Both the position numbers and the translations under genes were made by a program. A model generated the notes under the pieces. That model saw only the letters and a program-made list of their open reading frames with translations, was not told where the DNA came from and did no database searches. Below, in pieces: positions 15,072 to 57,978 of a DNA stretch of 64,000 nt. Source of the stretch: Aphrocallistes beatrix. Its lineage: Eukaryota; Porifera; Hexactinellida; Sceptrulophora; Aphrocallistidae. How positions within the stretch are numbered: the first letter of the stretch is position 1; the number at the start of each line of letters is the position of its first letter. The stretch lies in assembly GCA_963281255.1 (NCBI GenBank), contig OY725490.1:4030001-4094000 (forward strand). The letters are read 5' to 3'.

Positions 15072-15601
15072 TCAATCAAGAAAGGGATTTGTCTTAAATA
15101 GGAATTCAGCAAGATAGTCGATCGGGTTGCTGGGCCTGATTTTTACAATATCAGACAAACCACTAGTTAATGTAGGCATCACATATCTCATTATATAAGA
15201 TCTTAAAGGGAGAGCTCGACATTCTAAAATATCATTCTGTTGTCTTACAATCTCTAACTTTTGAGCAGTCCAGATTGCTTCAGCAGAAGTAACTCTTGAA
15301 ACTTCCTCTATCTCAAGAACTCTTTTAGTATCTGCATTTTTCTTCATCTCCAAAATATTATTTTCTTTCTCAAAATTTATCATTAATTCTAATTCTTGCT
15401 TAGAAGGACCAAAGTTCTTTGGATGACCAACCATTGAAATGATTTTTTTTGCTAAATATTCTGTTGAGTAATCACAAATTTCTAAAGAAATAATCTCAAT
15501 TTCGTGCTCATCAAAGTATTGTAGTATCGTTGGCTCAGTTAAATTTAAATTGATATATTTTTCGTATCTTCGGACAAAATCTTCCTCATTATTGTGAGTA
15601 C
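15072..15601 (-). CDS. AK7: Adenylate kinase 7, terminal exon with Dpy-30 motif
   Basis: This is the last AK7 exon. The acceptor TTTTTCTAG ends at 15602 and the first two bases (GT) complete a Gly codon with the preceding exon. The product opens with THNNEEDFVRRYEKY, equivalent to the kinase lid/core end, then LQYFDEHEIEII and VGHPKNFG. A charged helical stretch of about 60 residues, likely coiled coil, follows. The tail reads LPLRSYIMRYVMPTLTSGL then PIDYLAEFLFKTNP, a clear Dpy-30 dimerisation motif as in vertebrate AK7. The stop TGA is at 15074-15072. Together the three exons give 386 residues with no internal stop, which supports both junctions. A reading from an internal Met at 15434 would miss the first 56 complete codons of this exon and is not preferred. 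A functional gene is inferred from the intact frame. Confidence 0.94.
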
Positions 15602-15873
15602 CTAGAAAAATAGTGTATAAGTCACTAGATAGAATAAAAAGTTTAAATTCAGGATAGAAAATCCTTTACAATAAACTATAAAATCGTTAATTTATACTTC
15701 TCTATTTGGTTCAAGATAGAGAGGAGTAGAACTTGACAACTTATTCCGCAATATGTAATTTAAATCTTAGATCGTGCAAGTGATGTATTAAATTGATGAT
15801 TAATAATCATTATATACATCTCATTCAAAGTTGATACTTTGATCTATTACTATTTAGGGCATTAAAACAGTTA

Positions 15874-16221
15874 TCATCCCAAATCTGTATCTCAAGTGAT
15901 AGCGAAAATAGGATATTTTCGATTTCGATTGTATTCTTTAGGGGATCAGCTTCAAATTGGTTTATTGGTTTATTTTAAAAGGACAATTATTGTGGCTTCT
16001 ACATTAGATTTTTGTACACATCGGTTTAACGTAGTGCCTTTGAACGTGATTTTTGGGGTTCCTTTTGATATACGTATAGCAAAAGCTAATGTAGGAACCA
16101 CAATAATTGTCCTCTTAAAATAAACCAATATATAAATTGGGAGCTGATCGCCTAAGGAATACAATGGACAAATCCAAAATATCCTATTTTTACTATCATT
16201 TGAGATACAGATATGGGATGA
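15874..16221. mobile_element. Palindromic MITE in AK7 intron
   Basis: TCATCCCAAATCTGTATCTC at the left is matched by GAGATACAGATATGGGATGA at the right. The arms of about 125 bp stay inverted inward (GGACAATTATTGTGG versus CCACAATAATTGTCC). Short open frames on both strands here are mirror images created by the palindrome. No clear target duplication. Confidence 0.8.
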
Positions 16222-16472
16222 GAACTTATTGAATTTCTTAAGTAGCGTATAGATTCTCTTTTCCCCAGGTGAACAAGGAGATCAATATTTGAGCATCTAA
16301 GATTAAATCTTTTGGAACATTAGAGGTTGAAGGCTCATTAAATGAGATTACTTTCTAACAGATTATAAAATAACAGGTTACCGAACGTGATAATCTAAAA
16401 TCCGTCAAGTTATCTTCATGATTTAGATATAGTATGCATCCTAATATTAAAAATTATAAATATATAGTATAT

Positions 16473-19158
16473 GTATATGGGGAATTCCATGCCAAAAAAA
16501 CCAATAATTTCACCACCATCAACCGATTGGTCTGAAATTTGCTGTGTGACAGGGCACGTATATGTCTTTACTTTTGTGAAAATTTCAGATCAATCGGTCA
16601 TGTGGTTTTTGAGTTATGACGTCACAAATTTTTGAATTTTTGCTGTTTTGACCAAGGATTTTCACAATGGTAAAATCCCATCCCATTTTAAACTCGAATA
16701 ACTCGAAAAATATTCATCAAATTCTTTCATAAATTGCGATACTTATGTTTTTACATATGGAGAAAACGAAAAACTTGAGTAAATTAAGTTTTGAGTTCCT
16801 TTTCTTTGTGAAAACTGGAACTGAAACCAACTCCCGAAGCAAACCGGAACTATGACGTAACAAAAATGTATATTTTTGAAACTGTTTTATTTTTGGGTAT
16901 TTTACTGTTTATATTCATAATTCATTGTATAAAAAAATTCATTTGGTTTCCATATGTTCTCTTTGAGTTATTCACATTTTTGTACCTGTAAACGCTTTCT
17001 ATATATAATTCAAAATTTTATGCCTTTGTAAAAATATAAAATTGACCTGACAACTCTCAATTCTACCATTTTGAAAATGCTTTTTTGTCTTCCTCTATAA
17101 TATCACTAATTCTTACAACATTCTGCAATTGATATGTGCACTTGGAATTATAAGTATGTTGTATATTTGACCACATACAGACTAAACATAAACAGTGTGT
17201 AATGCTGTTGTTGCTATGTAATAGGAATGCAATAAATGTCACTAATGAGTTGAAAAGTTAATTTTAGAGGGCTAATATTTGCTAAACAATCCGATATTTA
17301 GTCCGAACATAGCACTCTGTATATAAGGCCACCCATCTAAATCTCAAAAATGGACCAGGGATGCGGTCGAGGATGGTTGATCAAATACATGATCTGCCAA
17401 AAATCATGAACGACGCAGAATAGAGCTTCGAAATGTATTACCAGCATATATAAATATGACGCCAGAGTATCCATATCCGTTGTTAAAATTTCGATTAGTC
17501 ATCATATGATTGCACAATAGGTTATATTTGGGACACATTTAGTGAATTTCAGAGGTTGTTTAAGGGCACTTCTAAGTTTGTTTTAATATAGTTTCTTTGT
17601 ATAGAACTGAGCTGTGAATGGGTTGATGCGAAAGTGAATATTTTTCATGGAATGTTGCTACATTCCAGCGTTGCTATGAAAACGCATTTTGATCAGTTGA
17701 GGTCATATCTTGAAAACCGCAATAACTATGCTTNNNNNNNNNNNNNNNNNNNNNNNNNNNNNNNNNNNNNNNNNNNNNNNNNNNNNNNNNNNNNNNNNNN
17801 NNNNNNNNNNNNNNNNNNNNNNNNNNNNNNNNNNNNNNNNNNNNNNNNNNNNNNNNNNNNNNNNNNNNNNNNNNNNNNNNNNNNNNNNNNNNNNNNNNNN
17901 NNNNNNNNNNNNNNNNNNNNNNNNNNNNNNNNNAACTGATCAAAATGCGTTTTCATAGCAACGCTGGAATGTAGCAACATTCCATGAAAAATATTCACTT
18001 TCGCATCAACCCATTCACAGCTCAGTTCTATACAAAGAAACTATATTAAAACAAACTTAGAAGTGCCCTTAAACAACCTCTGAAATTCACTAAATGTGTC
18101 CCAAATATAACCTATTGTGCAATCATATGATGACTAATCGAAATTTTAACAACGGATATGGATACTCTGGCGTCATATTTATATATGCTGGTAATACATT
18201 TCGAAGCTCTATTCTGCGTCGTTCATGATTTTTGGCAGATCATGTATTTGATCAACCATCTTCGACCGCATCCCTGGTCCATTTTTGAGATTTAGATGGG
18301 TGGCCTTATATACAGAGTGCTATGTTCGGACTAAATATCGGATTGTTTAGCAAATATTAGCCCTCTAAAATTAACTTTTCAACTCATTAGTGACATTTAT
18401 TGCATTCCTATTACATAGCAACAACAGCATTACACACTGTTTATGTTTAGTCTGTATGTGGTCAAATATACAACATACTTATAATTCCAAGTGCACATAT
18501 CAATTGCAGAGTGTTGTAAGAATTAGCGATATTATAGAGGAAGACAAAAAAGCATTTTCAAAATGGTAGAATTGAGAGTTGTCAGGTCAATTTTATATTT
18601 TTACAAAAGGCATAAAATTTTGAATTATATATAGAAAGCGTTTACAGGTACAAAAATGTGAATAACTCAAAGAGAACATATGGAAACCAAATGAATTTTT
18701 TTATACAATGAATTATGAATATAAACAGTAAAATACCCAAAAATAAAACAGTTTCAAAAATATACATTTTTGTTACGTCATAGTTCCGGTTTGCTTCGGG
18801 AGTTGGTTTCAGTTCCAGTTTTCACAAAGAAAAGGAACTCAAAACTTAATTTACTCAAGTTTTTCGTTTTCTCCATATGTAAAAACATAAGTATTGCAAT
18901 TTATGAAAGAATTTGATGAATATTTTTCGAGTTATTCGAGTTTAAAATGGGATGGGATTTTACCATTGTGAAAATCCTTGGTCAAAACAGCAAAAATTCA
19001 AAAATTTGTGACATCATAACTCAAAAACCACATGACCGATTGATCTGAAATTTTCACAAAAGTAAAGACATATACGTGCCCTGTCACACAGCAAATTTCA
19101 GACCAATCGGTTGATGGTGGTGAAATTATTGGTTTTTTGACATGGAATTCCCCATATA
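16473..19158. repeat. 2.7 kb giant palindrome with central gap
   Basis: The left arm 16473-17733 and right arm 17934-19158 are inverted copies over more than 1.2 kb with few mismatches. Outer tips are GTATATGGGGAATTCCATG and its inverse. The arms' inner parts (from GGACCAGGGATGCGGTCG) match the smaller palindrome at 56964-57594. No transposase is visible. It probably is a foldback DNA element. Confidence 0.9.
17734..17933. other. Assembly gap of 200 N at palindrome centre
   Basis: Exactly 200 N. The right arm resumes about 35 bases short of where the left arm stops, so at least part of the hairpin centre is missing. The round number suggests a placeholder, not a measured length. Confidence 0.97.
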
Positions 19159-19632
19159 CTCTCTGGACAAAAGTATTCGTACCCCAATATTTTCCACCCA
19201 AACTGTTATAATTCTAATCAATTTGTGAAATCAAACACATTTAATTAGTAACAGATACACTAAATCTGGCTTCGAATTCGTTTTCTTAACATTCAAATTA
19301 CTCACTTTGTAAGCTTTCAACTTAATTACTCTCCTTCAAGATTTAGTATTTTCAGCATTTGTAAACCTATGCCAAATATCACGAGTTATCACTATTATAT
19401 ATGATAACATTGGTGGTACGAGGTGGCACAGTTTAAAAATGTTTAATCATGTGAGAGAGTAATCGAGTGGAAAGAATATAAAGCGAGCATTAGAATGTGG
19501 AGAATTTGAATTTAAAGTTAAATTCAGCGTCTCTCTTACAAATTAAATTCCCTTGACTCGCTAAATAACTTAGCACAAGTATTAGAACTATTAGTATGAT
19601 AAATTTTGGGGGGTATGAATATTTTGTGAGTG
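19159..19632. mobile_element. Tc1-type MITE, family M1
   Basis: TA-flanked; left end CTCTCTGGACAAAAGTATTC, right end (inverse) CACTCACAAAATATTCATAC. These are degenerate Tc1-like termini (GGACAAAAGTATTCGTAC class). The interior shares ACTTAATTACTCT and GGTGGCAC-like blocks with the copy at 26850-27303. Confidence 0.75.
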
Positions 19633-21958: not shown

Positions 21959-23557
21959 CAGGGTAGAACATAAGTGCTGTCCTATTGAGTTTTGTCAAAT
22001 AAATGGAATTTTAAGTTATAGTATGCTATGATTCACTTATCAATATAATCTCCATCTCTTTCTATTACAAGTTTAATACGATTAGGCATATCTGCCACCA
22101 AGTTCGTCAAAATGTCTGGATCTATCTGACTCCACGCTTTTTTAACTATTTTCAAGGGTATCAATATCACTTGGTTGTCCCATCTCATCGACCTTGCCTT
22201 TGACGATTGCCCAAAGATTCTCGATAGGATTTAAGTCTGGGGAATTGCCTGGCCATTTTTCCTTCCTCCAAAAGTGGGGGAGATTGTTTTCGCACCACTC
22301 CTGAGTCAATTTATCCGTATGGGCGGGGGCGCCATCATGTTGAAAGATAATCTCGGACATGTTTCTTGACATCGCAAGCTTTAGGATTGAGCCCTTCTTG
22401 GCCCTACGTTTGAGAGCATCCTTACAAGTGTATGCCAGAATAAAATCACGATAATAAGCTCCGGTTATAGTTTGGCCTTTGGGTACAATGTGCAAATCTG
22501 ACAGAGCCTGGTGTGACATCATACCCCACTCATGAACTTTAGGAGGAAATTTCACCTTGTAGCATGGAGGTACAACTTCAGGTTTTCGTGCGATCATTTT
22601 GGCGATTAGGGGTAGAGAATAATTCAAAAGGACACTCATCTGACCATAAAACCCATTTGAAATCATCAACAGTCCGCTCTTGCCGCTCCCTGGCAAATTT
22701 GAGACGATTTTCCTTCTGACGATCTGTTAGTTTCGGCCTTTTCATCCGTTTGTAAGATTTAGCACCTAAAGAATTCGCCAAATATCTTCGAAAAGTGGTG
22801 TGAGTGATCGGGTAGCCCATGCTAGTTATTCTTTTAGCCAATTTTCTGGTAGATTGCCTTCGTTTAGTAACTGATTTAGCAATCACGATTTTTGCCACAC
22901 GGTGAAATTTCGGCGGTCGTCCAGACCGCGCTTTAGTCTCTAGCGTTTTCCCAGAATTCTGAATGCTGTACCAACGTCTAATCGAGCAATCGTGAATGAG
23001 GGCCCACTGCTTCTGTAAAAAATGTCTTCATAATCGATGTCTCATGACGATTTAGTACCAGGTACCTTTCATTCGCCATAGAAATATTTCATAAATCCAC
23101 TGAATTCGTTATCAGAAATGAGAAAAAGTTATTCAGTCGAAGTTAAAATTAGGTACAATTTGCAAAATTCACCAAAGAGGAAATTTTCATCACATCACAA
23201 AAAAATCTGATCCAATTGGTGTTCAAAATGCACTGATCTGAACATCTTATATCTCAACAAATTTAGAGTGTTCGAGCAAAATGTGTGAGCTAATTTTCCT
23301 AGAATTTGAAGACTCTGGGAAGATGACTTGAAAAGCAGTGGGCCCTGATTCACGATTTCCGTTGCGGACCAGGATACATTTTTTTTTTCAAAACTCACCA
23401 TACAAAACACATTTCTAAGTCATAGAATCGAAAAATCTTTTAAAATCATTGAGGATATTCGAATTACAATCTCTAAGGACCATAATAACTAAGATCGTTT
23501 GAGTATAAGAAATTATATACCTAATGAAGCTTGTAACAGAACTTATGGGTCACCTTG
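21959..23557 (-). mobile_element. DD37E Tc1/mariner-group transposon, about 1.6 kb
   Basis: TA-flanked insertion in the HEL-A TA tract. The ends are CAGGGTAGAACATAAGTGC and, inverted, CAAGGTGACCCATAAGTTC, similar but imperfect inverted repeats. It carries a broken minus-strand transposase. Confidence 0.87.
22142..23079 (-). pseudogene. DD37E transposase, frameshifted
   Basis: A Tc1/mariner-group transposase that would cut and paste the surrounding element. The likely ATG is at 23079-23077 (MANERYLVLNRHE). The helix-turn-helix region is frameshifted, followed by 22898-22578 with TRKLAKRITSMGY, RYLANSLG and LWSDECPFELF (first catalytic Asp). The frame shifts within 22578-22696 and continues to 22142 with WGMMS, FQHDGAPAHT (second Asp) and SPDLNPIENLW (Glu). 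Thirty-seven residues separate the second Asp and the Glu, defining DD37E. All three catalytic residues are present, so only frameshifts inactivate it. The C terminus is truncated by a stop after about DTLENS. Confidence 0.88.
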
Positions 23558-28305: not shown

Positions 28306-29385
28306 TGGATGTCTAAAATTCCAGAAATGGTAGGAGATTACGTGCAATCGGTATGTTAGAATCAGGTATTAGCCAAAAAGAGATTGCACAGACATTAGGG
28401 GTTACAGTTAAGACTGTTTGGAAAACGAAGAGTCTATCAGGCAAATCCATGGCAAGTATTGCAAGTATAAAGTCTATAAGGAGGTTTTCCGTCAAAAGAG
28501 CATCACTTTCAGCTTTCTTAACGGACAAAACTAGCTCTGGGCGTCCAACACGGCTTTCTCGCATTCTTAAAATCATTATTAGAAAATCTCTTGGCAAACG
28601 ATCTACGCGAAAACTTGCTTGTATCGTCTCGAAAAATTCAAAGAGAGTTAGTAAAGACACTATACATCGCTATTTAAGGAATACTATCGGAACAAAGCCA
28701 TGCAAAAGACCTTCGCATCCAAAATTGTCGGAAAAACAGAAAGAACAGAGACTAAAATTATGTCTTAGTCATAAATTTTGGGGAACAGGATTGGAGAAGG
28801 GTTCTTTTTAGTGAAGAGACTATTTTGAACCTTTTCATTCAACAAATCGGCAGAACGATCAAGTTTGGAGTCAGAATGCATGAAACATTTAACCGGTTCA
28901 AACAGTTAAATTCCCGAGTAGAATCATGGCATGGGGGATGATGAGTGGTACTGGGCTCTCGGAACTCCATTTTCTTCCTCCCAAACATCTGTATATGCAG
29001 ATTACTATATAAACGAAATTTTGGAGAAGTCCTGCCTTCCTACCTCAAAGAGAAGGAAACTACAGGCCCAGTGGCTGGACGGAAAAATATCGCTTGATGT
29101 CCGAGGCCATTATTATGCAGGATGGGGTTCCTGCCCACACCGCCTTAAAGACACAGACCAGGCTTTCCAAACATACTCCAGGCTACTGGGCAAAAGGAAT
29201 TTGGCCTAGCAATTCGCCATTTTAAAATGCCATTGAAAAAATTTCGGCAATTATTCAAGCAGAGCTTGACAAGAAGAAACCAGCCACCAACTTGTCATAA
29301 CTCGTAAAATATCAGAAAAATATCTGGAATGGGCTCACGACTTCGATTTTGGAGGATTTAATCTCAGGGATGTCTGCTCGTATTA
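28306..29385 (+). pseudogene. DD37E Tc1/mariner-group transposase, degenerate
   Basis: The 28353-28811 frame gives GMLESGISQKEIAQTLGVTV (helix-turn-helix), a GRPTRLSRILK linker motif, SLGKRSTRKLA and YLRNTIGTKP. After a frameshift the next part reads RVLFSEETIL, in which the first catalytic Asp is Glu. Later frames hold NICICRLLYK and YYINEILEKSCLP, then MQDGVPAHTALKTQ (second Asp) and a stop-broken SNSPF-NAIE (final Glu). With the stop counted as one residue, 37 positions separate Asp and Glu, as in the element at 21959. Several stops and frameshifts; no inverted repeats recognised. Non-functional. Confidence 0.8.
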
Positions 29386-44330: not shown

Positions 44331-44334
44331 TTAA

Positions 44335-45969
44335 GGATACCGCTCTCGCAAAACTTTGCTTGAAAAAAAAAATGGAAATTATTTATTGTTAATTCATTGT
44401 ATTACTGAGTGGTCTACCATCTAGTCGTACTAGATGGATTGCATTTATTTTGATGAGTTAACCTCCTAAAGTTTAGCGTTACTAAAATTAAAAAATTATT
44501 GGAGATTTTCCGGCGCATTCATCAATTAGATTCTTACTTATTTGATATTCTTTTTAATGATATGGACCATAAAATTGTTTTGGCCGCTTTGGAGATTATA
44601 TAGTTCGGGCATAATACCTCTCTATGGTTCCGAAAGAGGTCGATGTCATAACTTAAAAACTATTCAAGATATATAATCTATTATAACCTTAAATGAAAGG
44701 ATATTTTTGAGAATATATAGGTTTCTCAAATATCTATTTATTTAATCAAATATCTATTAATATTTAAAAATAAAAATCTCAACTTATCATTGACTTTATT
44801 ATAATACAAATTCTATGTAGAACTTTGAATATAGTATAATAAAATGGCGAACCTGATAATGGAATTTGTGTCCAAATGTGGCTATAAAGTTAAACAATCA
44901 ATACAATGGTTGTTAATAATGTATACAGAAAAATTGGAGCACTTTTCATAATTATTTGAAGTTCTGTCCTTGGACCTCCCAGATTCTGTCAAACCCCAAA
45001 TTTATAGTCTAAAAAGAGATATCTCTCTATCTCTGTAAATATATTTCCAAATTCTTAGTTCTCAATTCCTAATATACTTTTTATAACGGTATATATATGA
45101 TTCATTGATAATATTTGCACCACATCCTATGGAATGCTAAGTTTTAGATTTTATAATATGCATTTTTCGAAAATCACAACTTGGAAATAAAAAGTCGTTG
45201 ACTCTCGTTCTAGCTTCCTAATGAGCATTTGAGAAGCTCTTTAATCATTCTAAACTGATGGAGCATACTTTGTATTGCTAGGACTATGAATTATTATTTT
45301 CAATTGGTACAAAATATTCGGGATTAGGAGCCTCAAGGAAATTTGTGGATTTTCAGCATACGTTTTGCTATTTTCCTCACAGTTTGTTTGGAATATATCT
45401 AAATCATTAGTATAAATGCAAATAAATGCCTATGAATGCTTCTATTTATCCTTAGTAGGTCAATTTACATTGTTCTTAACATTTAACTTCACTATATCTC
45501 GGGACTTTAAAATTTCAAAATTGACCATCTTGATAGAGGGTTTGAAAATTTCAAGAGTTGCTCTATATCATTAGGCGATGAACGTAGGACCACTCGATTT
45601 GCGATCTCTTATAAGTTAGTGATATTATGGCTGATTTACTAAAAAAAGTGTTTATGGGTTTTTTTTGTACTTTTTTTAAGACCCATATAAAATTTACAAT
45701 TTTTGCTATTTTAACTTTATATTGGTCCTATAAGGTGGGAAATATGATAGACTATCTATGATTAGATTTTCGAAGCATTTGTTTCCTTGGCATGTCCTTA
45801 AAAATACTTTGAGACACTATATCTCAAAAACTAGAAATGAGAATCAAAAGCGGTAATAATGCGTAATTATTTCTAGAAGCCGATACGAGCCCACCCTTAA
45901 CATCTCTAATAGTTCTACTTTCATTGTATGCTCTAAGCCAAATCGTATGATTTTTCGCGGGCGGTATCC
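44335..45969. mobile_element. Foldback family FB-1, copy 2, 1.6 kb
   Basis: TTAA at 44331-44334 and 45970-45973; ends GGATACCGCTCTCGC and its inverse GCGGGCGGTATCC. The right two thirds match the right arm of copy 1, but the left end leads straight into a different segment (GTGGTCTACCATCTAGTCG), so this copy is not a full foldback. No coding region. Confidence 0.85.
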
Positions 45970-46017
45970 TTAATGATAAAATGAATCAACAAAGAATCAA
46001 GCAACATACTAACTGTT

Positions 46018-46047
46018 AAAACTCGATTTTGATCATATATATATATA
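46018..46047 (+). mobile_element. HEL-A 5' tip remnant
   Basis: TTAAAACTCGATTTTGATC plus a TA tract that hosts the adjoining MITE. Confidence 0.5.
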
Positions 46048-46470
46048 CAGGGTGTTTCAGCTATTGCATCACGAAAATAATTTGAAATTACTAGGTAAAT
46101 ATTCTACTAATCATCTTCCCCTTTTACGATGTTGTTTCACACCCTCTGACATTTGTGTGACAACAAAATGGACAAGCTAGATGACAAACAAAAGAAGATC
46201 AATATGGTGGAATTCTATCATAAAAATCAGTCCTATTCAAGATTACCCCACACTTCTAAGGTTTACCCGCCCAAAATGACTAAATCGGAAATGAGTTATC
46301 CCACATTAATGATGTTTTGAAATAATTTACTTTTATTCCAACGGTTTGCTTCATTGTTTTCATAAATGTCAAAGGATTTCCTTTCAAAAGCAACCAAAAT
46401 AACTAAATTATCTCAATCACAAATGAAATGATAGCAATTCACTTTTGTGTGTAATCAATGAAACACTCTG
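46048..46470. mobile_element. Mariner-derived MITE, copy 2
   Basis: TA-flanked; CAGGGTGTTTCAGCTATTGC start and the inverse-like CAATGAAACACTCTG end. The internal ATG at 46168 opens MDKLDDKQKKINMVEFYHK, as in the 24052 copy. Confidence 0.82.
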
Positions 46471-46621
46471 TACATATATATCTTTTTTTTAGGATGTGAG
46501 TTATGCGGTTTTCTACACCTGTTTTTCACTGATTTTAGATAAATTTAGTGATATTCTGTCCTATTTTAAGCACATTTTAAAGCGGTATTAATAAGTAATG
46601 AATGATTCTCAAACATAATCA

Positions 46622-46893
46622 AGGTGGCAACGGGTTGATTCGAAACTGAATTGATATCACTGCCGTGAGCGAGATCGGACTCAAATCCTCCTGAATTTTT
46701 TTGAGAGGTGAAACTTTGGGGATGGGGACTACGGTGGCAGACTTCCAGAGTACTGGGGAAATTCCATCCTGGATGGAGGCATTAGAGATATTACAAATAG
46801 GAGGGGCTAGTAAAAATGAGTAATCTCCAAATATCCAGTTAGGGACGTCATCTAGGTCAATAGTTTTGTTAACCCGGATAGAAGACAGAAGAT
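46622..46893 (-). pseudogene. Non-LTR retrotransposon reverse transcriptase fragment
   Basis: A minus-strand reading of about 90 residues contains SSIRVNKTIDLDDVPNW, LAPPICNISNASIQDG, PVLWKSATVVPIPKVSPL and EDLSPISLTAV. This matches the start of LINE reverse transcriptases, before the catalytic palm motifs: a helix, then W-K followed by PIPK and the P-I-S-L box. The frame ends in a stop at 46619-46621 and the remaining RT, including the catalytic Asp pair, is absent. Sequence upstream on the same strand (46895-47128) is open but unrecognised. A 5'-truncated or interrupted relic; jockey-like affiliation is a guess. Confidence 0.8.
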
Positions 46894-47149
46894 TTCACAC
46901 CTCTGGAAAAACAAAATATAAATAATCTGGGTAAATAATGAAACAATTGTATTCAGCTTCCAGGGGCATTGCCCCAGAAACCCCATGGAGCTTGCAGCTC
47001 CCCTCAGATCCCCAGCTATTTGGTTGGACCCTAATCAAAAAACTATTCCTACGCCAAAGCATGTTGGTGAACATTTTGTCTAATACTGCAGTACAGCGAG
47101 TTGGATTTTCACTTGTTTTAGTGGACACCTTCTTAACTGGGTGTCATTG

Positions 47150-47487
47150 AGCCTTTTAAAATCAGTCAGTATGATTACGCCAGTGTGAGGATGTAACAGG
47201 AATTGTCCTCTGTTTTCTTGTGCCTGCTCGCTGCAGTCGGTCTGATTTCTCTATCTTCGTGTGGGTGAGGTGGTAGCGTGGCGAGCTGTCCTGCGGGTAG
47301 CTGTCAGCGGTGGAAAGTTGGGAAAGAGTGGGGTGGGGAGGGGGAAGTGGCTACGTCGGAGAGTTTAAATGGCATATACATCACAAGGAGTTGCAGCCAT
47401 TAGGCGGAAAACAATGGTTAAACTGTATTTAGGTTGGTATGAAGTTGGAAAGTAGTTTTATAAACCTATATCTATGACAGTGCAATT
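47150..47487. other. GC-richer tract, unassigned
   Basis: Unusually G-rich on the plus strand (for example GTGGGGTGGGGAGGGGGAAG at about 47330). It could be part of the LINE or another element; no reading frame was recognised. Confidence 0.35.
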
Positions 47488-47548
47488 CTTCAATCAAATT
47501 CGGACAAACAAACAAATAAAAAAAATCCTAGCGTTTTAATAAAAAAGA
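47488..47548 (-). mobile_element. HEL-B 5' tip
   Basis: Minus strand reads from ATTAAAACGCTAGGATTTTT through (TTTG)n to GTCCGAATTTGATTGAAG; the remainder is missing. Confidence 0.6.
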
Positions 47549-48247
47549 TTTACGGTATAAATAGTACCGGACATGCAGTGAGTGCCAAAAGAAATTCAAT
47601 CTGCCATTACAACTTCAAAGGAAACTACACCCCATTCCACCTCCCTACAACCTTTGGGTGCACATTAGGATATTTCAAAAAATTTCCACTTTTTTGTGGT
47701 GGGATTTCGCTTTGTTCAAATATTTTCTGCTTTCTATCACTAGTAGAATTAACTGTATAACAGTTCTTAATTTCTCTTTGTATTCAATATTAATGATATT
47801 GTGACCTAAAGACGGTCCTATTCTAGGTTAAATATTTGGTACAGTACTTATTATACTAACAAGGAAGCTTAGCGAGATTGCACTGCGCGGTTGGCGATTT
47901 ATGCGTTTAAAAATGTCTGGGTTGGAGAATAGGAGCGTATCTCTGGAGTGCAGTATAATATCCTGGACTGGATGAATTGACCTATAATTCCTCAGTAAGG
48001 ATTACAACGCTGCTTTTGTGCTAGAAACGAAATTTCATTTCATTATGAGTCATATTTTTCAAATATGTGATATTACATATTCTATATCATCATATAGTAA
48101 TATTTCATATGAGATATTTTGCAAATTAAGACTCAGAAAGATATGAAATAATTTTTATAGCATAATAATAGCGTTTTATCATTTATCAAATAAGTACTAA
48201 AAATATGGGACCCGAACACGATAGCCTTTAAGTTCTAATATCATTAA

Positions 48248-48736
48248 TACTCGCTTACATGCGCTGCGAGGTTGGCGGACACTTTGCGTCCGCCATAGGT
48301 GCCCTTTGAGCGCCTAGGCTCACATTGATTAATTATAAGGTGGATAACATCTCTAAATGCGTCTGTTTTACTGTTATAATCGATATCGCCCGAAAAATCA
48401 CCAAATTTGTCAATTTTTAAATTTTGAATGCATAAAGATGACGTCATGACAGAATGAAGGGTTATCATTTTTGATGATAGTTGTATCATATGTGAAGGAT
48501 ATTAATATACAGTTTATTAAAATTTCAGCCTTTTATCACCTACAATGACTGAATTATAGTTGAAAAATTAAAATCTCTAATATAAAGGTGACAATGACTC
48601 ATAATTCCATGATGAGTAGACAGTTTCATCTGAGGTCAGAACATAGTGGAGCCATTGCCAAAAGACTAAAACATGCCAAAATCAGATTTCTGTTGCTAGC
48701 AGTTTCTTCAATCAATTCGTTACAGATATATATACT
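48248..48736 (-). mobile_element. HEL-A copy, minus orientation
   Basis: GGCGGACACTTTGCGTCCGCC hairpin at 48272, CATTGATTAATTATAAGG, AAGATGACGTCATGACAG, to CAATCAATTCGTTACAG. The 5' terminus is replaced by a pogo-type MITE. Confidence 0.85.
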
Positions 48737-48741
48737 AACTA

Positions 48742-49330
48742 CTGTCGAACCTACAATAACGGCACCTCTATATAACGGTAAACTGTCTATAGCGGTCACC
48801 AATGAACAGTCTCATCCGAAATTCCATATTATTGAACTTGTGTTTAGCGGTCACCTACTCAACGCGGCCAGCGGCCACCCGTTTGTAGTCCCTTACTGAC
48901 CCTAAACTGTGTATAATGGCCATCACCTTTTCACCTTTTTATGTGTTTATTACAGGTCCTGTTAAGAACGATAAATAAGTTTTGTAATTACTTCAAGTAA
49001 TGGAGGAACTACATGTAGCAACTATGCTTCATTCTATATAGGGTTTAAAGTGCCTGTAGTACTTAACTCATTACAAAAAATATCAATTGGCCGAGTAAAC
49101 TTTAGATTAGAGCCAAATATTGAAATGACTGGCATATTTATTTTTTTACACAGATACATATATGAAAGCTATGGTTCTTCCAATTTATTTCATTCATTGT
49201 CAGTACATTTTATCTCATGGCAGCTAGCTGTCTATTAACGGCTTTTACCTATCTAAAATGGCCATTACCAATCTAAAACGGCCATTACTTCTCTACAACG
49301 GTCATCATCTAAGCGCTGTATACAATATAC
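48742..49330. mobile_element. Tigger/pogo-type MITE
   Basis: CTGTCGAACCTACAATAACG start, with GGTCACC, GGCCATTACC and AACGGTCATC repeated. The segment GTTTGTAGTCCCTTACTGACC is the inverse of one at 56238. Right end uncertain. Confidence 0.65.
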
Positions 49331-49386
49331 ACAATGGATGTTAATTAAAGTTTTGGTTAAACTTATCACCGAACCTTAGGTTAATA

Positions 49387-50719
49387 CTTAGGTCATTTCA
49401 AAAGTACTGATCACCCCCCACCAATTTGATATTAAGCAACGCCTGATGTGTTATTTAATTACATATTCTCGAAATAGTCTCCCTTGACGCGAATACACTC
49501 CTTTGGATGGTCTACCCAGCAGCAGAATGTCTTTTTATACTCCGTCTGTGGGATCGATTTCAGGTACTTATGGACGGCGATTCCGATCTCCATTCGATTA
49601 GTGAACTCCTTATCAGAGAGATGACTTTTCAGCTTTGAAAACAACCAGAAGTCACAAGGACTTAGGTCAGGGGAATAGGGAGGGTGATTCAGTGTTTTCA
49701 TCCCTATATTCTTGATGTATGCGGCGACTTGTTTAGTTTTATGGCTACTGGCATTATCATGTAGAAGTTGTATTCCACGAGGACCAGTTCTCGGCCGACG
49801 CTCTGTGTAGTGTTTACTGACTTCTGCGAGCACATGAGTGCAATAAAAGTCTCCAGTAACATTCTGGCCCTTCGGAACGTAAACTTGAGCAACTGGGCCG
49901 TAGGCGACAAATGCAATTGCGTACATTACCTTCTTGGCACGGAAATTTGGACGCGGTCATTTAGGTCGGGGTTCGCCCGGATGCAGCCAACACTTAGATT
50001 TTTCCTTGGATTTAGGTTGTGAATAGTAAATCCAAGTTTCATCTATGGTTACTATCTCATAGAGTCGCCTTGCATCAAATTTTTCGTAATGTAGAATATT
50101 TTCACAACATTCTACCCTCTGTTTCATCCGGGCCTCTGACAGCAAATACGGCACCCACCGAGCGAAAACCTTCCTTACTCCGATATCTTTCTTCAGAATG
50201 CGGTAAATACTTCCCGTTAAGATATCCGTATACTAAGAAATCTCTTCAATAGAGCAGCAAGGGTCATTTCGAAGAAATTCACCAACTAACTCAATTGAGG
50301 GTTCACCGGTTGCAGATTTAGGCCTACCAGTCCGAGGCTCATCTTCAATGCTGTCTCTTCACTCTCGAAATAGTCCAGCCCATTTTCTAACCGTGGAATA
50401 AGCAAGTGCTTGATCTCCACAAACTCCCACGAGATCATTGTGGATGTTCCTGTTCGAATCTTTTAGCAGTGAACGAAACTTAATATACGCCCTTTGCTCT
50501 TGCTCAATAATTGACGATTTTGAAGCCATAAATGTATAAGTAGCCAAAACTGACGAGATTGAAATGATGATTATAAGAAAAATACTTATGCTATCTTAAA
50601 AATTCTTTTAGATAATAGGAGAGAATGGGTAATGCTATCTGGATTATATTAATTGATACATTCGATATACACTAGCTCTCAAAAATCAATAGTGATCAGT
50701 ACTTTTGAGATGACCTAAG
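49387..50719 (-). mobile_element. Mariner element, 1333 bp
   Basis: TA-flanked (49385-49386, 50720-50721). Ends CTTAGGTCATTTCAAAAGTA and inverted CTTAGGTCATCTCAAAAGTA, one mismatch over about 28 bp. The minus-strand transposase is in a single frame. Confidence 0.96.
49459..50529 (-). pseudogene. Mariner transposase DD34D, three stop codons
   Basis: Start MASKSSIIEQEQRAYIKF at 50529. One continuous frame of 357 codons, close to the usual mariner length of about 345, is broken only by TGA after WAGLFRE, TAG after CSIEEIS and TGA after GEPRPK. Motifs in order: helix-turn-helix with YSTVRKWAGLF, GRPKSAT linker, GVRKVFARWVPYLL, TIDETWIYY (first Asp), LLHDNASSHKT (second Asp) and YSPDLSPCDFWLF (third Asp, 34 residues on). 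All catalytic residues remain. No frameshifts were needed, which suggests a fairly recent insertion. It encodes no full-length protein as read under the standard code. Confidence 0.94.
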
Positions 50720-51037
50720 TAGCGTTGCTTTTTAAAGCATAGAACTAGAGTCGTTAACATCTCGATTCGTATTTGTTCTCAAGCAGCAGCATGAGACCCG
50801 ATTGTCTTTAACGATAACTATATAATGACCTCAATTAAGTAAATAATTTGAAGCAAGTTCCCTTTCCCAACTCAAGGATGAGCTTCCACCGAAATTGAAT
50901 GTTAAAATTGGAGTGCGGTCCTTTAATTCTCCTTGTATACCATTTTGTAAATTGACAAGTGTATTGATCATTCAATTCTCCTGCATGTTTTTATTAATGA
51001 TAAATGATTATTCATCCTTGGTGTGGCAAATAAGGAT

Positions 51038-51786
51038 GGCATCGTCCAAATGCAAATCACTGACTCTGGAAAAGAGAAAATGATTGTCATCAAGAATAAT
51101 AATAACGGGGAAAATGCTCGGAGGATAGCAGAAGAGATGGGGGTTGGTTGTGCCCAAATCCAGGGAATTATTATGAACAAATCTGAAATAAGAGACGAGT
51201 CTAATTATGCCAGTAAACATGCAGTAAGAAAAATTTCACAAAACTGGAAATGAGAACATATAGACATATTATGCTGGGAATGGTTTTGTGAAGGCTCTTC
51301 ACGCCGTGTGGTAGTCACTGGCCACTTTTGCGCGAAAAAGTGCTTGACATTGCAGCAAATGAAGGAAACACAGAATTCAAAGGCTCGAAAGGCTGGTTAG
51401 AGGCGTTTGTAAAGAGAAATAATATCGTTTATGGAACAATTAGCGGCGAGAGTGGGGATGTCAGCGAAAAGGTTGTTCGTGATTCGCAATCAAAAATTCC
51501 TAGTTCTGTCAAAGATATGAACGAGTAAACATCTTTCATATTGATGAGACTGGATTAGTTTACCGTGCTACAACCAACACAAGGACGTTTCATGTTAAAG
51601 GGACTTAGTGCCGTAGAGGAAAGATGTCAAAGAAACGGCTTACGATGTGTGCAAGTGCAATGGGAGAGAAAAAGATTCCACTGGTGATTGGTAAATCTGG
51701 GGGAAACCACAGTACTTCAAGAATATCGATCCCAGGACACTTCCTTTGACATATTTGTCAAATCAAAAGGCATCGATGACGAGTTA
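51038..51786 (+). pseudogene. Tigger/pogo-type transposase fragment
   Basis: Starts MASSKCKSLTLEKRK, then after a frameshift MIVIKNNNNGENARRIAEE and GVGCAQIQGIIMNK, a CENP-B-type helix-turn-helix. 51328-51528 gives a second DNA-binding half (GWLEAFVKRNNI). 51530 onward reads FHIDETGLVYRA, the first catalytic Asp block of the DDE_1 domain, then KKRLTMCASAMGEKKIPLV and YFKNIDPRTLPLTYLSNQKA. The C-terminal catalytic residues are lost where a HEL-A 5' end begins at 51787. Frameshifts and stops make it inactive. It may be the source of the pogo/Tigger-type MITEs nearby, but that link is inference. Confidence 0.86.
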
Positions 51787-51849
51787 TCCTTTCTATTAAA
51801 ACTCGATTAATGTTTGTTTGTGTATATATGTGTATATATATATATATAT
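51787..51849 (+). mobile_element. HEL-A 5' tip inserted in Tigger relic
   Basis: Begins TCCTTTCTATTAAAACTCGA directly after GAGTTA, followed by a TA tract that leads into a minus-oriented copy. Confidence 0.75.
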
Positions 51850-52371
51850 AAGCGCACTTAGCTTGCTTGCGGTGCGCGGCTGGCGGAAACTCTGTGTCCG
51901 CCGGAGGATCCCTTCGGTCGCCTGGGGTCACATTGGGTAATTATAAGGGAGATAGCATCTCTAAATATGTCTGTCAAACTGTTATAATCGATACCACTCG
52001 AAAAATCACCAAATTTGTCAAATTTAAAATTTTTGATGCGTAATGATGACGTCATAACAAAGTGATGAGTCATCATTTTTTGATGATAGTTACATCATAT
52101 GTGATGTATGTTAGTATACATATTCTATTAAAATTTCAGCCTTCTATCTCCTATAATGGCTGAGTTATGCTCGAATAACTGTGTTGCTTAACTTTTAAAA
52201 ATGTGACAATGACGTCATAATTCAATGATGAGTCGACATTTTACTCTGAGCTCAGAACTTACTGGAGCCATAGTCAAAAGACTCCCACATGCCAAAAATT
52301 AGCTTTCTATGACCGGCAGCTTCTTCAATCAATTCGTTACAGATATATATCCTTACTATTACAACTCGATG

Positions 52372-52406
<35 letters not shown>

Positions 52407-52921
52407 GTAACGAATTGATTGAAGAAACTGCGGGGCGCAGAAGGCTGATTTTTGGCATGTGGGAGTCTTTTGGCTATGGCTCCAGTAAGTTCTGAGTTCA
52501 GAGCAAAATGTCGACTCATCATGGAATTATGACGTCATTGTCACATTTTTAAAAGTTAAGCAACACAGTTATTCGGGCATAACTCAGCCATTATAGGAGA
52601 TAGAATGCTGAAATTTTAATAGAATCTGTATACTAACATACCTCACATATGATGCGACTTTCATCAAAAAATGATGACTCATCACTTTGTTATGACGTCA
52701 TCATTACGCATCAAAGGTGATTTTTCGAGTGATATCGATTAGCACAGTAGAACAGACATATTTAGAGATGTTATCTCCCTTATAATTAACCAATGTGACT
52801 CCAGGCGACCGAAGGGAACCTCCGGCGGACACAAAGTGTCCGCCAGCCGCGCAGCGCAAGCAAGCGCGAAGCGCGCTTGTATATATATAAATATACAATA
52901 ATTGAGTTTTAATAGTAAGGA
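51850..52921 (-). mobile_element. HEL-A copy b, minus, carrying copy c
   Basis: The 3' terminal region is at 51850-51910 and the 5' end (inverse of TCCTTACTATTAAAACTCAA) at 52892-52921. The TA tract is interrupted by copy c at 52350-52879. Both TGACGTCA sites are intact (about 52045 and 52209). Confidence 0.85.
52350..52879 (+). mobile_element. HEL-A copy c, nested in b
   Basis: TCCTTACTATTACAACTCGA to GAAGCGCGCTTG. It is inserted between A and T in the TA tract of copy b with no visible duplication. 530 bp, complete. Confidence 0.88.
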
Positions 52922-53465
52922 CAAGCGCGCTTCGCTTGCTTGCGCTCGCGGCTGGCGGACACTTTGTGTCCGCCGGAGGCTCCCTTCGGCCGCCTGGAGG
53001 TGACATTGGTTAATTATAATGGAGATAACATCTCTGAATACGTCTGTCCTACTGTTTTAATCGATTTCACTCGAAAAGTCACCAAATTTGTCAATTTTTA
53101 AAATTTTGATGAGTAATGATGACGTCATAGCAAAGTGATGTGTCATCATTTTTTGATAGTTGCATCATATGTGAGGTATGTTAGTATACATATTCTATTA
53201 AAATTTCAGCCTTCTATCTCCTATAATAGCTGAGTTATGCCCGAATAACTGTGTTGCTTAACTTTTAAAAATGTGACAATGACGTCATAATTCCATGATG
53301 AGTCGACATTTTCGTCTGAGCTCAGAACTTACTGGAGCCATAGCCAAAAGACTCGCCCATGCCAAAAATCAGCTTTCTGCGCCTGGCAGTTTCTTCAATC
53401 AATTCGTTACAGATATATATATATATATATATACACAAACAATAATCGAGTTTTAATAGTAAGGA
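52922..53465 (-). mobile_element. HEL-A copy d, tandem with b
   Basis: CAAGCGCGCTTCGCTTGCTT at 52922 to the inverse of TCCTTACTATTAAAACTCGA at 53465. Copy d's 3' end touches copy b's 5' end with no spacer: a direct head-to-tail pair. Confidence 0.9.
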
Positions 53466-53525
53466 TATGTAACGAATTGATAGAAGAAACCGCCAGGCAC
53501 AGAAAGCGTATTTTTGGCATGTGGG
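53466..53525 (+). mobile_element. HEL-A body scrap
   Basis: ATGTAACGAATTGATAGAAG through TTTTTGGCATGTGGG, then unrelated sequence. Confidence 0.6.
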
Positions 53526-54339
53526 TATTTTTTTTAAAATAACGATTTAGAAATGCCAAGTTTTCACAGTGTCTTCAAGACTGATGTCACTTCATACTAA
53601 AGTTTTAAATTAACAGCTATCTTAACGGACCAACTGTCTCGGAACAAAGTTTAAATAAAATATAACTTTGTATTTATTTTATTTGTAAATAAACGAAATA
53701 TTGAACTTCCGCTGTTTAAATTGATCGTACTGTCAAACTTTTGAATTTGGACTAGTGAAGGTCGTCAGAAATTTTTTCTTAGTCAAAAATCGGTTAAATT
53801 GATCTATCCTCAATGGAGCAAAATTGAATGATTAATTTTCACTTTTAGAATACAATGTTCAAATATTCAAATGGGGAGCCTACTTCAAAATAGATGATTT
53901 TTAGATAAACATAAAATTTGAATCATTAGTACATAATACAATATTTTTATAAATTCAACCTATAATTAAAAGTGCTTAATCACATTCGATTATGGATGAA
54001 ACCATCGCGTTACACAAAGCATACAATATTAGGTGCAGGATAATCATGACTAATAGGTTTTCAAAACTACATCCAGAGGGTGCTAAAAACGCAAATACGA
54101 GTTTCACATGCCGCGAAGCAAAAGTACACAAATTATGCTTGTAATATTTTTTACTTCCAAACGATGCTACAATTCAATGAGGTATTGCATTCTTAATTTG
54201 ATATTTTTTTAAAACCTAAGGTTTAGAATCGTGACTGAAGCCTTTTTAGAAAATATCGTATTTTAGACAAATGTTTGAACAAATTGGGGATATTTGCCAT
54301 ACCACAAAAGCCTACAATAGAGATTATACATTACTAAGT
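53526..54339. other. Intronic, nothing recognised
   Basis: No supported gene or repeat. Confidence 0.35.
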
Positions 54340-54850
54340 TGAAGAGAAGTGAGTGAGTGTATTAAACATCTCATGGGGAGAGACATAGAGGCCACACACA
54401 AAATCCCTAAAGGAGAAGGAAAGTTCATGGAGGTACCTCGTGCCAGGCCTAAATTGAAAGAAGGTGCTGTTCGATGTGTACTTCCTGGATGTCGACCTTA
54501 TGTTCGACAACATTAAAAAATGAAGCGGCCTCGCTTTTCATATGATTCAAGAGAAAGAATAGCTGAATAAACCCCTACAGATGAGCTTGAATTCTGAGAC
54601 AGGAAACAGACAAATGCAAGATCAAGACACTACAGAATCAAAAAGATAAGGTGACTCTCATTTTTACGTAATAATTGGTTAGTGTGGTACTGTGATTATC
54701 TTTCCACGTTTATTGTCTCCATTTTGAAAGATGAAATATTTCAGTTCACCTCCCATCTTGAAATTAATTGTGTTCTATCTGCAAAAGCTATTGCGAATGG
54801 ACAATATTTCCATTTCTGCCAATTCTATATCTGATTTCTGACAGAATGAA
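54340..54850 (+). pseudogene. P-like element N-terminal fragment (THAP end)
   Basis: A frame near 54400-54510 reads HKIPKGEGKFMEVPRARP and LKEGAVRCVLPGCRPYV, resembling the end of a THAP domain, then MKRPRFSYDSRE. Around 54670-54800 it reads NWLVWYCDY and HLEINCVLSAKAIANGQY. This parallels WFVWFRDENN and YLEINSYLSTSAYFHGQN of the P-like relic at 3962. Stops are present. Together the two relics cover complementary parts of one transposase family. The THAP call is tentative because the zinc ligands further upstream are not visible. Confidence 0.5.
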
Positions 54851-54879
54851 TTACAAGTCTTTATTAAGCACTAAAGCAA

Positions 54880-55420
54880 TTGAAAAGCTTAAGGCTACAT
54901 TTAATAGAAAACATGTTCAGCTTTAAAAACACTCTTAGTGGGGATGCGGACGGGCACATTTCATTATCAAGATCTCATTATTTGACACAACAATAAAACA
55001 TGGTTATTCGATCTATAATTGGCTACAAAAATTCAATTAATGCAGTAAATCTCAAAAACAATCAGTATACAGTTTACCCTGCTTTAGTTCACCTGTATAT
55101 AGCGGTCATCTGCACACAGCGGCTACCTAAAAAACATGTGAACAGTCCCGTCCGCTTTTATATAATATTAACCTGTGTATAACGGCCAACTGCTAAGCGC
55201 ATCGGCTCCACTAAAGCCGGTACCTCGGGACTCTAAAACAGTCAATAACGGCACGTCCATGTTTAGAACGAGTATAAAGTGTAATAGTGACAACATATAT
55301 ACAGTAGACTAAATATTGATGCGGATGGTGGAGCTGAAACATGTCTGCAATTAAAAGTGAACTAAATTAAAAAAATTTCATAGAATTTTTAACGCTCAAA
55401 TATCATTGCGGTTTATTGTT
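54880..55420. repeat. Unnamed dispersed repeat, copy 2, with pogo-type insert
   Basis: Matches 480-867 at CAGCTTTAAAAACACTC, GGGGATGCGG and AAATATTGATGCGGATGG. Between about 55070 and 55270 it has AGCGGTCATCTGCAC and TGTATAACGGCC strings typical of the Tigger-type MITEs. Confidence 0.5.
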
Positions 55421-55985
55421 GTTTTAGATAATGACGTTCAGAGTGATACCACTATGAAGTCAAGCTCAAATGCCAATGAAGCCAAGCCCAAATGTTAGGA
55501 GAAGCCGGGAAGATGTTAGGATTTACAATTACGAATAATTGATCCTCTAGTAGTACTAGTAGCATAGTAGTTTTGTGTGTCATTTATTCATTATTTAGTA
55601 ATTAATAGCAATGTGAAATAAATAAATGTTCACTATTTCTCAATAAGGGAAACACAACTTTACCATAATATTGATTGCATTGTAATGTCCAATAGTCCAC
55701 TTACAACTTGATCCCTGGTACTATTACTGTATGGCCTTAAATAGAATAGCCTATGAATTCGCTTTATAATTACTAGATTATAAAGGCTTAAGTCGCACAA
55801 AGTGATATGTATGGACATAATAATCGATAAATATTGAAAGATTATAAGGCTTTGTATGATCTTTTTTCCTGTTCTACTTGATATTCAACATAGATGTTAT
55901 TTTACTGTTTGACATATTTCTGCGTTGACCAAAACACTTAGTACAAGTAGAATAAAGAGTATCATTTCAGAACCAGAGACAACTA

Positions 55986-56395
55986 CAGTGGAACCTGTAT
56001 ATAACGGCCACCCAAGGGACTGTACAAAATTGGCCGTTATAGACAGGTGACGTTATATACAGGTGATTGTCTTAATCCCCAAAGGTATCAACGTCGTGCA
56101 ATAAATAAAGTTTTTAGAAATCCTTTACTTGAAGTAATTACATGAAACTTGTTTATCGTTCGTAATAAACACATAAAAGGTGGAAAGGATGATGGCTGTT
56201 TTAGACAAGTAGTGGCCGTTATAGCCAGTTTTGGGGTCAGTAAAGGACTACAAACGGGTAGCTGCTGGCCGCGTTGAGCAGGTGATCGCTATATACAGGT
56301 TCAATATTAGGGAATTTCGGACGGGACTGTTCATTGGTGACCGCTATAGACAGGTGAGAGTTATATTGAGTGGCCACTATAGCTTGTTCGAATGT
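55986..56395. mobile_element. Tigger/pogo-type MITE
   Basis: TA then CAGTGGAACCTGTATATAAC; repeated GGCCGTTATAGACAGGTGAC and ACCGCTATAGACAGGTGA. The right terminus is eroded. Parts are inverse to 48742-49330. Confidence 0.72.
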
Positions 56396-56963
56396 ATTTT
56401 CATTATTTATCGATAGACATATAAACTAAGGACTAGTTTGCAACTAGAAAGAAAGGATGTTTCATGCTTTATTAATAATCCTTCAAATGATCTGAATCAT
56501 CCTTATGATTTGAACAATAAATTAGCAATAACTACAGTTAGCAATTAACGTAGATGCGCTGCACTTATGCAGTTGAGCGTTGTAGCATATTAGATCAAAG
56601 GTACTCATTGATATTTTTAAAAAATACACAAATCCAAGCAGGCGAAATATTTTACGGAGTTTATTGATGACCTCTATAGAGCAAATTCTTTCCAGTTTGA
56701 CTGGCAATCTAAATCCCGAATAAAACTTCAAAAATATTAATATTAAATGCACAATGTTCGTAATATATATTACAATAATATTTAATTTAGGTTTAACACA
56801 GGATGATATAACATTTGAAAAGGATGACCTTGGGAGAAGGTGCTCATAATTGTCTCTGTTTTATGAAAAAAAAATTTGTGAATATTACTTGTATATACTT
56901 TTACATGTAAATATTGTGCACTATAAATAATATTAACCATGGCCTATTATACATAAGGACTCA

Positions 56964-57594
56964 CAGTAACCCACGGATTTTGGACCAAGGATGCGGTAGA
57001 AGATGGTTGATATGAGCTGCCTTAAATCACTAACCAGGCACTATAGAATTTAGGAATGTATCCCCAGTATATATAAATATGGTGTCAAAGTACACATAAC
57101 CGCAGTTAATATTTAGATTAGTCATCATATGATTGCTCAATTGGTTAAAATTGTGACAAGTTAGTGAGTTTCGGCCCGATTGAAGAACATTTCTAAGTGT
57201 TTTAAATGTATTGTTTCACACGCAGAACTGAGCTTTGACTAGGTTGATGCGAGAAATTTGGAATTTTTTTCATGGAATGTTGTTACATCCCAGCGCAGTT
57301 ATGGAAACATTTTTTGGTTATTTCGGCTTATATCATGAAAACTGCAATAACTAAGCATTCAAATGTTACCCCAAAACACTAAACTTGTCACAATTTCAAC
57401 CAATTGCCCAATCATATGATGACTAATCCAAATTTTAATACGGATATGTATACTTTGACACCATATTCATACGTATATGGAGATAATACATCCCTAAGCT
57501 CCAATCTGCATCGTTAAAGATTTAAGATAGCTCATGTATTCATTAGTTCATCCATCTTCTACCAAATCCCTAGTGCAAAATCCGCAAGTTACTG
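56964..57594. mobile_element. 631 bp palindromic element beside the AK7 P-loop exon
   Basis: CAGTAACCCACGGATTTTGG at the left and its near-inverse at the right; arms inverted along most of the length (for example TAGTCATCATATGATTGCTC). It is the short form of the 16.5-19.2 kb palindrome and sits 107 bp into the intron after the exon's donor. Confidence 0.88.
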
Positions 57595-57700
57595 ATAGGT
57601 CGCATATGTAGTAGGCCACGTATTAAAATTTAAATAAAAAAAGGATGACATTTTCATTTGTACTATTCTGTGTTTAACATAGCGAAGTAAAATTACTAAC

Positions 57701-57978
57701 TTAATCCTTGTAGCCAAATTTTCAAGCTGGGTAATCTGCTCTTGAATAACATCTTTGATAATAATATGAGGTATTTGATAATAATCGGAAAGATAGGCAG
57801 CTAAACATGTTTTTCCAGCGGCAGGAGGACCAATAATACATAATCGAATTGGAAGAAGATTTCTTGATTTTTTGTATTCATTAACAACAGAAGAAATGTG
57901 GTCAACGAATCCAGTTTCACAAATCCAAGGAATATCAATGTAATCTTTGACAGATGTTGAATTCATCCTTAGATTAAC
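57701..57978 (-). CDS. AK7: Adenylate kinase 7, internal exon carrying the P-loop
   Basis: This exon encodes the start of the adenylate kinase core of AK7, an axonemal/ciliary protein with an N-terminal nucleotide-sugar-epimerase-like region, a kinase core and a Dpy-30 tail. The exon encodes 92 complete codons plus two bases. Residues 50-57 read GPPAAGKT, a Walker A loop at 57808-57831. The segment before it (VNLRM, then WICETGFV and NEYKKSRNLLPIR) follows the known AK7 order between the N-terminal domain and the kinase. The acceptor is a pyrimidine-containing tract ending CAG at 57981-57979. The donor AA/GTTAGT leaves a two-base overhang that the next exon completes with C. Translation could also run into the intron up to 57589, but that part has no AK7 similarity. 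Earlier exons must lie beyond 58 kb or outside the window; I could not find them. The family assignment rests on recalled similarity, not a search. Confidence 0.9.

Follow-up and report, generated by a model that had tools for sequence, protein, structure and literature searches.

An intact AK7 gene with giant, transposon-rich introns in the otherwise compact genome of Aphrocallistes beatrix

The stretch of Aphrocallistes beatrix DNA analyzed here (the window; 64,000 nucleotides, positions 4,030,001 to 4,094,000 of contig OY725490.1, below C3) holds the 3′ part of a gene for adenylate kinase 7 (AK7) that continues well beyond the window's upstream edge. We consider it highly probable (about 0.87) that this is an ordinary AK7 ortholog, intact as a coding gene, whose introns were inflated by transposons and which is cis-spliced from one long pre-mRNA. 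On this reading, the gene itself is ordinary, and what is unusual is its setting, since giant introns are rare in a genome that is compact elsewhere. Coordinates are those of the window, continued past its ends for the flanks.

Results

Exon structure of the AK7 gene

An earlier note on this DNA had placed three minus-strand AK7 exons at 57.9, 42.4, and 15.6 kb. We recovered all three at these coordinates, namely, exon 3 at 57701-57978 (278 bp; residues 286 to 378), exon 4 at 42093-42445 (353 bp; residues 378 to 496), and exon 5 at 15072-15601 (530 bp; residues 496 to 671 and the stop codon TGA). Each is preceded by AG, and exons 3 and 4 are followed by GT. Direct reading also confirmed that they join in frame, with overhangs of 2+1 and 1+2 bases at the junctions, to give 387 codons including the stop. 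The earlier note had described an AK7 gene of three exons split across 43 kb; this view had to be enlarged. In the flanks, covered for 120 kb on the upstream side of the window and for 30 kb on the downstream side, we found two further minus-strand exons, both upstream of the window: exon 1 at 121879-122579 (C3:4151879-4152579; 701 bp) and exon 2 at 99031-99184 (C3:4129031-4129184; 154 bp). The gene thus has at least five coding exons, and its start and stop codons lie a nominal 107.5 kb apart.

The ATG of exon 1 lies at 122579 and is preceded by an in-frame stop; an upstream noncoding exon or leader is possible. The joined coding sequence comprises 2,016 bp, which encode 671 amino acids followed by TGA, and its 672 codons contain no internal stop. 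Reading phase is kept at all four junctions, and the four introns, all on the minus strand and in order, are of the GT-AG type. They measure 22,694 bp (intron 1, between exons 1 and 2), 41,052 bp (intron 2, 57979-99030, with 57979-64000 inside the window), 15,255 bp (intron 3, 42446-57700), and a nominal 26,491 bp (intron 4, 15602-42092, which holds a scaffold gap). A candidate polyadenylation signal, AATAAA, is found on the same strand at 14940-14945, about 125 bp beyond the stop codon.

When random intron segments of exon length were drawn, a stop-free frame occurred in 2 of 5,000 for the length of exon 1, in 3 of 5,000 for that of exon 5, and in 248 of 5,000 for that of exon 2. Such frames are thus rare at the lengths of the long exons, though not at those of the short ones, and the open frame of exon 5 is not a product of chance. 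GC content in the AK7 coding sequence falls from 0.44 at first codon positions to 0.25 at third positions. Repeat matches covered none of the five exons (2,016 bp), and five random segments of the same sizes placed in the gene span were all free of repeats in only 190 of 20,000 trials. The earlier note had argued that clean exons imply selection. In substance this holds, given the repeat-free exons, the open frame, and the homology across the junctions described below, which together suggest purifying selection on the coding exons. One line of evidence did not contribute: a codon-usage score trained on 4,022 codons failed to separate AK7 exons from intron DNA, which may reflect a small training set drawn from regions of higher GC content. 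Within exon 4, one weak 21-bp tandem repeat was called, with 2.2 copies and 75% matches.

The encoded protein aligns with AK7 over nearly its full length

To characterize the product, we compared it with solved structures. The 386 amino acids from exons 3 to 5 matched an adenylate kinase 7 chain best (9fqr_Xc; E = 2.7e-83, query residues 1 to 383 against chain residues 325 to 721), with no other family ahead, so the AK7 identity proposed earlier stands. The full 671-residue protein gave one unbroken alignment to solved AK7 (residues 25 to 668 against 66 to 721; E = 1.9e-150), and homology was continuous across all four exon junctions. In this full-length search, the two AK7 chains scored E values of 1.9e-150 and 2.6e-148, and the next protein listed was AK9 at 5.5e-11; AK8 matched at 3.2e-6 when the 386-residue part was the query. 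Pfam identified an ADK domain in the joined exons 3 to 5 (43.3 bits; cutoff, 26.8) and a Dpy-30 motif in the C-terminal part, encoded by exon 5 (51.5 bits; cutoff, 22). The P-loop GPPAAGKT, encoded by exon 3, occupies residues 335 to 342.

The N-terminal part of AK7-type proteins is Rossmann-like. Residues 25 to 285, from exons 1 and 2, align to residues 66 to 324 of AK7. No Pfam match was returned for exon 1 or exon 2 open reading frames (ORFs) scanned alone at E = 0.001, so the N-terminal assignment comes solely from the AK7 alignment. Domain order is the same as in AK7 of motile cilia (9fqr_Xc and 9d2f_D), and the alignment is close to full length; the solved chains have 724 and 723 residues compared with 671 here, and the sponge protein is about 40 residues shorter ahead of the aligned part.

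Ordinary adenylate kinases carry an arginine after the DG[FY]P motif, whereas this residue is a leucine in the sponge protein and a lysine in solved AK7. Given the leucine, we are unsure whether the sponge protein would be catalytically active. The leucine at position 673 of the 723-residue solved chain is also a leucine here (alignment position counted by eye); AK7 L673P is linked to human male infertility in the title of a work cited by PMC12399478.

We searched all six frames of the complete 100.5-Mb assembly with the 386-residue part and obtained five matches. Three were the AK7 exons themselves (E = 2.8e-112, 5.7e-72, and 1.8e-55), and the other two had E values of 0.27 and 0.35; this search found no second AK7 locus of similar strength. 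A search of an open-licence library gave no paper on Hexactinellida and adenylate kinase, although a glass sponge AK7 may still have been reported.

A scaffold gap separates exons 4 and 5

The intron between 42093 and 15601 contains a run of exactly 200 N at 17734-17933, the only such run in the window and one that the earlier note does not mention; we take it to be a scaffold gap. Another N run lies at -17381 to -17182. Exons 1 to 4 lie together on sequence that runs without a gap for at least 166 kb, and exon 5 sits on an adjoining 35-kb piece that we take to have been joined to it by scaffolding. The length of intron 4 is therefore nominal, and ORFs listed near 17.6 to 18.0 kb are artifacts produced by the N run. 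The gap is flanked by an inverted repeat with arms at 16473-17698 and 17934-19159, which are 99.3% identical over 1,227 aligned positions (BLAST, with indels); ungapped identity is 891 of 1,226 positions because of the indels. This repeat may be the reason for the assembly break.

Exon order could, in part, be an assembly effect, in which the scaffold join placed exon 5 at this position and its true distance or arrangement differs. The position of the gap, between exons 4 and 5, and the near-identical 1.2-kb repeat on either side of it lend this some weight, and because of the gap, exon 5 is linked to the rest of the gene by scaffolding, phase, and homology. Exons 1 to 4, however, are gapless and already include three introns of 15 to 41 kb. 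Exon 5 itself has the right strand, order, and phase, and elsewhere the genome offers its protein part no strong match (only one with an E value of 0.27 over 39 residues). We therefore regard an assembly effect as unlikely. Since strand, order, phase, and homology all fit, the gene itself backs the scaffold join.

Transposon content of the introns and flanks

Repeat cover, counted as sequence that is matched elsewhere in a DNA sample of about 300 kb, was 39.5, 31.7, 49.1, and 41.3% for introns 1 to 4, respectively. The earlier note had assigned nearly all of the mobile elements it described to two introns; in the same comparison, repeats extended beyond the introns and covered 40% of the upstream and 48% of the downstream flank of AK7. 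The gene span as a whole had 38% repeat cover compared with 27% in control DNA (80 kb in five stretches, which ranged from 6 to 35%), a comparison that is biased towards the larger locus and in which a 40-kb control on contig C1 (35%) was nearly as repeat-rich. The other four controls, 10 kb each (L025 to L028), carry several conserved genes; L025 to L027 are round-number places on C3, and L028 is nonrandom, having been picked for a Dpy-30 match. Median identity of the intron repeat matches was 81%, indicating that these are mostly old copies.

Within and near the introns, Pfam recognized Tc1/mariner, Tc5/pogo, integrase, OTU, and LINE parts, as well as THAP upstream of the gene. Among the 73 ORFs of at least 72 amino acids in the window part of the introns (6 of which span the N run and are artifacts), nine families were matched by one to three ORFs each, and all were transposase or general helix-turn-helix (HTH) families. 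Broken Tc1/mariner-type transposase pieces (HTH_Tnp_Tc3_2 and DDE_3) lie in intron 4 at 22142-23024 on the minus strand, followed by a transposase-type HTH fragment at 28317-28808 on the plus strand and a further HTH fragment (HTH_32 and Mos1-type HTH_48, all matches below the curated cutoffs) at 32375-32821 on the minus strand. Intron 3 contains a DDE_3/Transposase_1 fragment at 49459-49953, also on the minus strand.

Intron 2 holds a young LINE on the plus strand at 85675-88317 (L012:1675-4317), with an 881-residue ORF for endonuclease and reverse transcriptase. A 1,300-bp piece of it had 332 candidate places in the genome. Of these, 40 were scored, including the element itself; the 39 other copies were 93 to 99% identical, 38 of them at 95 to 99%, over the piece compared. 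Because this LINE is up to 99% identical to copies elsewhere, intron growth appears to be partly recent.

Pfam revealed no nested host genes among the 73 intron ORFs of the window, a scan that genes with short exons would escape, and none appeared among the matches listed for 90 ORFs of at least 105 amino acids from the upstream and downstream loci. Across the 214 kb of the window and flanks, the host genes other than AK7 among the Pfam matches listed all lie upstream; they encode a RING protein, a caspase-NHL protein, and ATP synthase factor 6. The caspase and NHL parts share one 563-residue open frame (L019:545-2233; window coordinate 154545-156233), a pairing that looked unusual. An Rfam scan of the window gave no matches at gathering thresholds. 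In the introns up to position 64000, no tandem array was longer than 103 bp. Arrays with units of 47 to 130 bp occur in the 3′ flank of AK7 at 7416-7896 and 13057-13975. ORFs for OTU proteases were seen at 8452-9126, L022:1192-1851, and L012:6190-6714 and are possibly part of a mobile element.

Giant introns elsewhere in the genome

As a yardstick for intron size, we searched the genome in six frames for four families (dynein heavy chain N2, chaperonin, kinesin, and myosin head). Pieces up to 70 kb apart were chained, leaving out pairs that shared an open frame and gaps below 30 bp. This yielded 78 chains, 44 of them with at least one intron, and 110 introns with a median of 294.5 bp. Some genes were split over two chains, and several chains are partial, so that further giant introns may be hidden. 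The introns of AK7 are 50 to 140 times as long as the sampled median.

Introns above 10 kb numbered 5 of the 110, and all fell within three chains, one chaperonin and two kinesins. The chaperonin gene, on contig C9, which we take to be CCT3, has an intron of 49.0 kb (nominal), and the two other introns seen in it measure 362 and 421 bp. Read directly, the exon ending in NIQDALQ runs into GTTAGT, and the one beginning with VTRNILLDP starts after TTAG, the two being in frame. The exon after NIQDALQ lies 49 kb off. The first CCT3 exon is present twice, 14 kb apart and nearly identical (L038, C9:4098001-4098500; L039, C9:4081801-4084600). In the kinesin on C14, the motor domain is spread over 66 kb (C14:1868588-1934781) by introns of 24.5, 15.6, and 23.6 kb and a fourth of 1.6 kb; the kinesin on C8 has a 20.8-kb intron, the only one seen. 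Giant introns tended to fall in the same genes: with AK7 left out, the three same-gene pairs of introns above 10 kb were a count reached in a share of 0.0045 of 20,000 shuffles, in a clustering test devised after the data had been seen.

No intron above 2.6 kb was found in 20 dynein heavy chain chains (one domain examined; 3 of the 20 are single pieces without a partner), and five dynein heavy chain matches lie within intron-free open frames of 4,124 to 5,039 amino acids. Flagellar function therefore does not predict giant introns. The idea that such introns are confined to AK7 or to cilia genes is ruled out by CCT3 and the two kinesins, as well as by their absence from the 20 dynein chains in the one domain examined. 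Giant introns are rare in the sampled families, yet they are not special to AK7.

Discussion

Comparison with known systems

Mean intron length is given as 341 bp for Oopsacas minuta (PMC10280926), and PMC10282587 compares two scaffolds with means of 194 and 516 bp and puts the mean gene length of Aphrocallistes vastus at about 2.5 kb. Short introns and single-exon genes, as in these two species, also dominate the four families sampled here. The AK7 gene, with five coding exons and four introns that are all giant, is about 43 times the published mean length of an A. vastus gene, set against published glass sponge mean introns of 194 to 516 bp.

In Drosophila, kl-3 and kl-5 are axonemal dynein genes on the Y chromosome. 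Intron gigantism is described for these fertility genes in PMC6508621 and PMC11207136. Sponge AK7 is like them in being a flagellar gene with repeat-rich introns far above the genome norm. It differs in scale and content, since the Drosophila introns reach megabases and hold satellite DNA, whereas those of AK7 are 15 to 41 kb and largely transposon derived; megabase satellite introns of the Drosophila type were not found in AK7, where arrays reach at most 103 bp in the window part.

A probable reading: an ordinary gene with inflated introns

From the DNA, we infer how AK7 is transcribed and spliced, what its protein does, how its introns grew, and that its exons are under selection. AK7 would be transcribed as one long pre-mRNA, from which four introns (22.7, 41.1, 15.3, and about 26.5 kb) would be removed by ordinary cis-splicing. 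Successive insertions of DNA transposons and LINEs probably enlarged the introns, in a stretch where few other host genes lie, and insertions that struck exons would have been removed by purifying selection. The product would most likely act in the flagella of the flagellated chambers, in line with AK7 in the cilia of other organisms. For those cilia, PMC12399478 describes two copies of AK7, together with AK9, modeled in the radial spoke 3 (RS3) head, and PMC10541116 argues for a place in the central apparatus.

The pieces of AK7 might instead be separate transcription units that are trans-spliced or read separately. Trans-spliced leaders have been reported in a glass sponge (PMC10282587), the distances between exons are large for this genome, and an in-frame ATG present in exon 3 would allow a separate start. 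Nevertheless, all internal exon ends resemble ordinary GT-AG splice sites, in order and on one strand, and in-order giant introns are also found in the CCT3 and kinesin genes, which makes such an arrangement very improbable. Least likely of all is a decaying gene. Insertions, as the size of the introns and the young LINE might suggest, would then impair splicing so much that AK7 would in effect have become a pseudogene, in this individual or in the species. Its 672 codons, however, show no stop or frame break, and the P-loop, the Dpy-30 motif, and the leucine opposite position 673 of the solved chain are all kept.

The AK7 gene shows that, in an animal genome that is compact otherwise, a few genes can reach about 40 times the published mean gene length of one glass sponge. 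Its coding frame is intact while young transposons sit in its introns, which makes it a test case for local transposon load versus gene function as the setter of intron length. It also provides a full coding model of a cilia protein from an early-branching animal class and a warning that a 64-kb window here can hide much of a gene.

We tentatively entertain, as a possibility that we think is probably not the case, a broader pattern in which transposon-rich islands hold a few conserved genes (AK7, CCT3, and some kinesins) in each of which one or more introns have grown to 15 to 50 kb, amid introns of about 300 bp and many single-exon genes. If so, gene size would be a property of the chromosomal neighborhood, and such genes might need special transcription or splicing, as the giant genes of Drosophila do.

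Mitochondrial features of the assembly

The mitochondrial genome is contig C28 (18 kb). Compared with the best PDB chain, its COX1 scored 779.9 bits with AGR read as serine, 766.7 bits with AGR read as arginine, and 767.8 bits under table 9 (COX1 alone was scored). The ORFs, which we named by eye and presume to be those genes, follow the order atp6-cox3-nad2-nad5-nad1, and atp9 is kept. By eye, cox3 has two apparent +1 frame changes 40 bases apart, both where A follows TGG, at L030:9223 (codon 140) and L030:9263. These features probably point to a glass sponge host. A flatworm host was set aside on the mitochondrial code; a search for Chitin_bind_4, as a sign of an arthropod host, gave no match, but it gave none in the control genomes either and so says little. 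AGR as serine, atp9, the same gene block, and TGG frameshifts are reported for A. vastus or glass sponges at large in PMC2267718, which gives A. vastus cox3 one TGG frameshift site, at position 140. The sequence here has a site at the same codon plus the second one at 9263.
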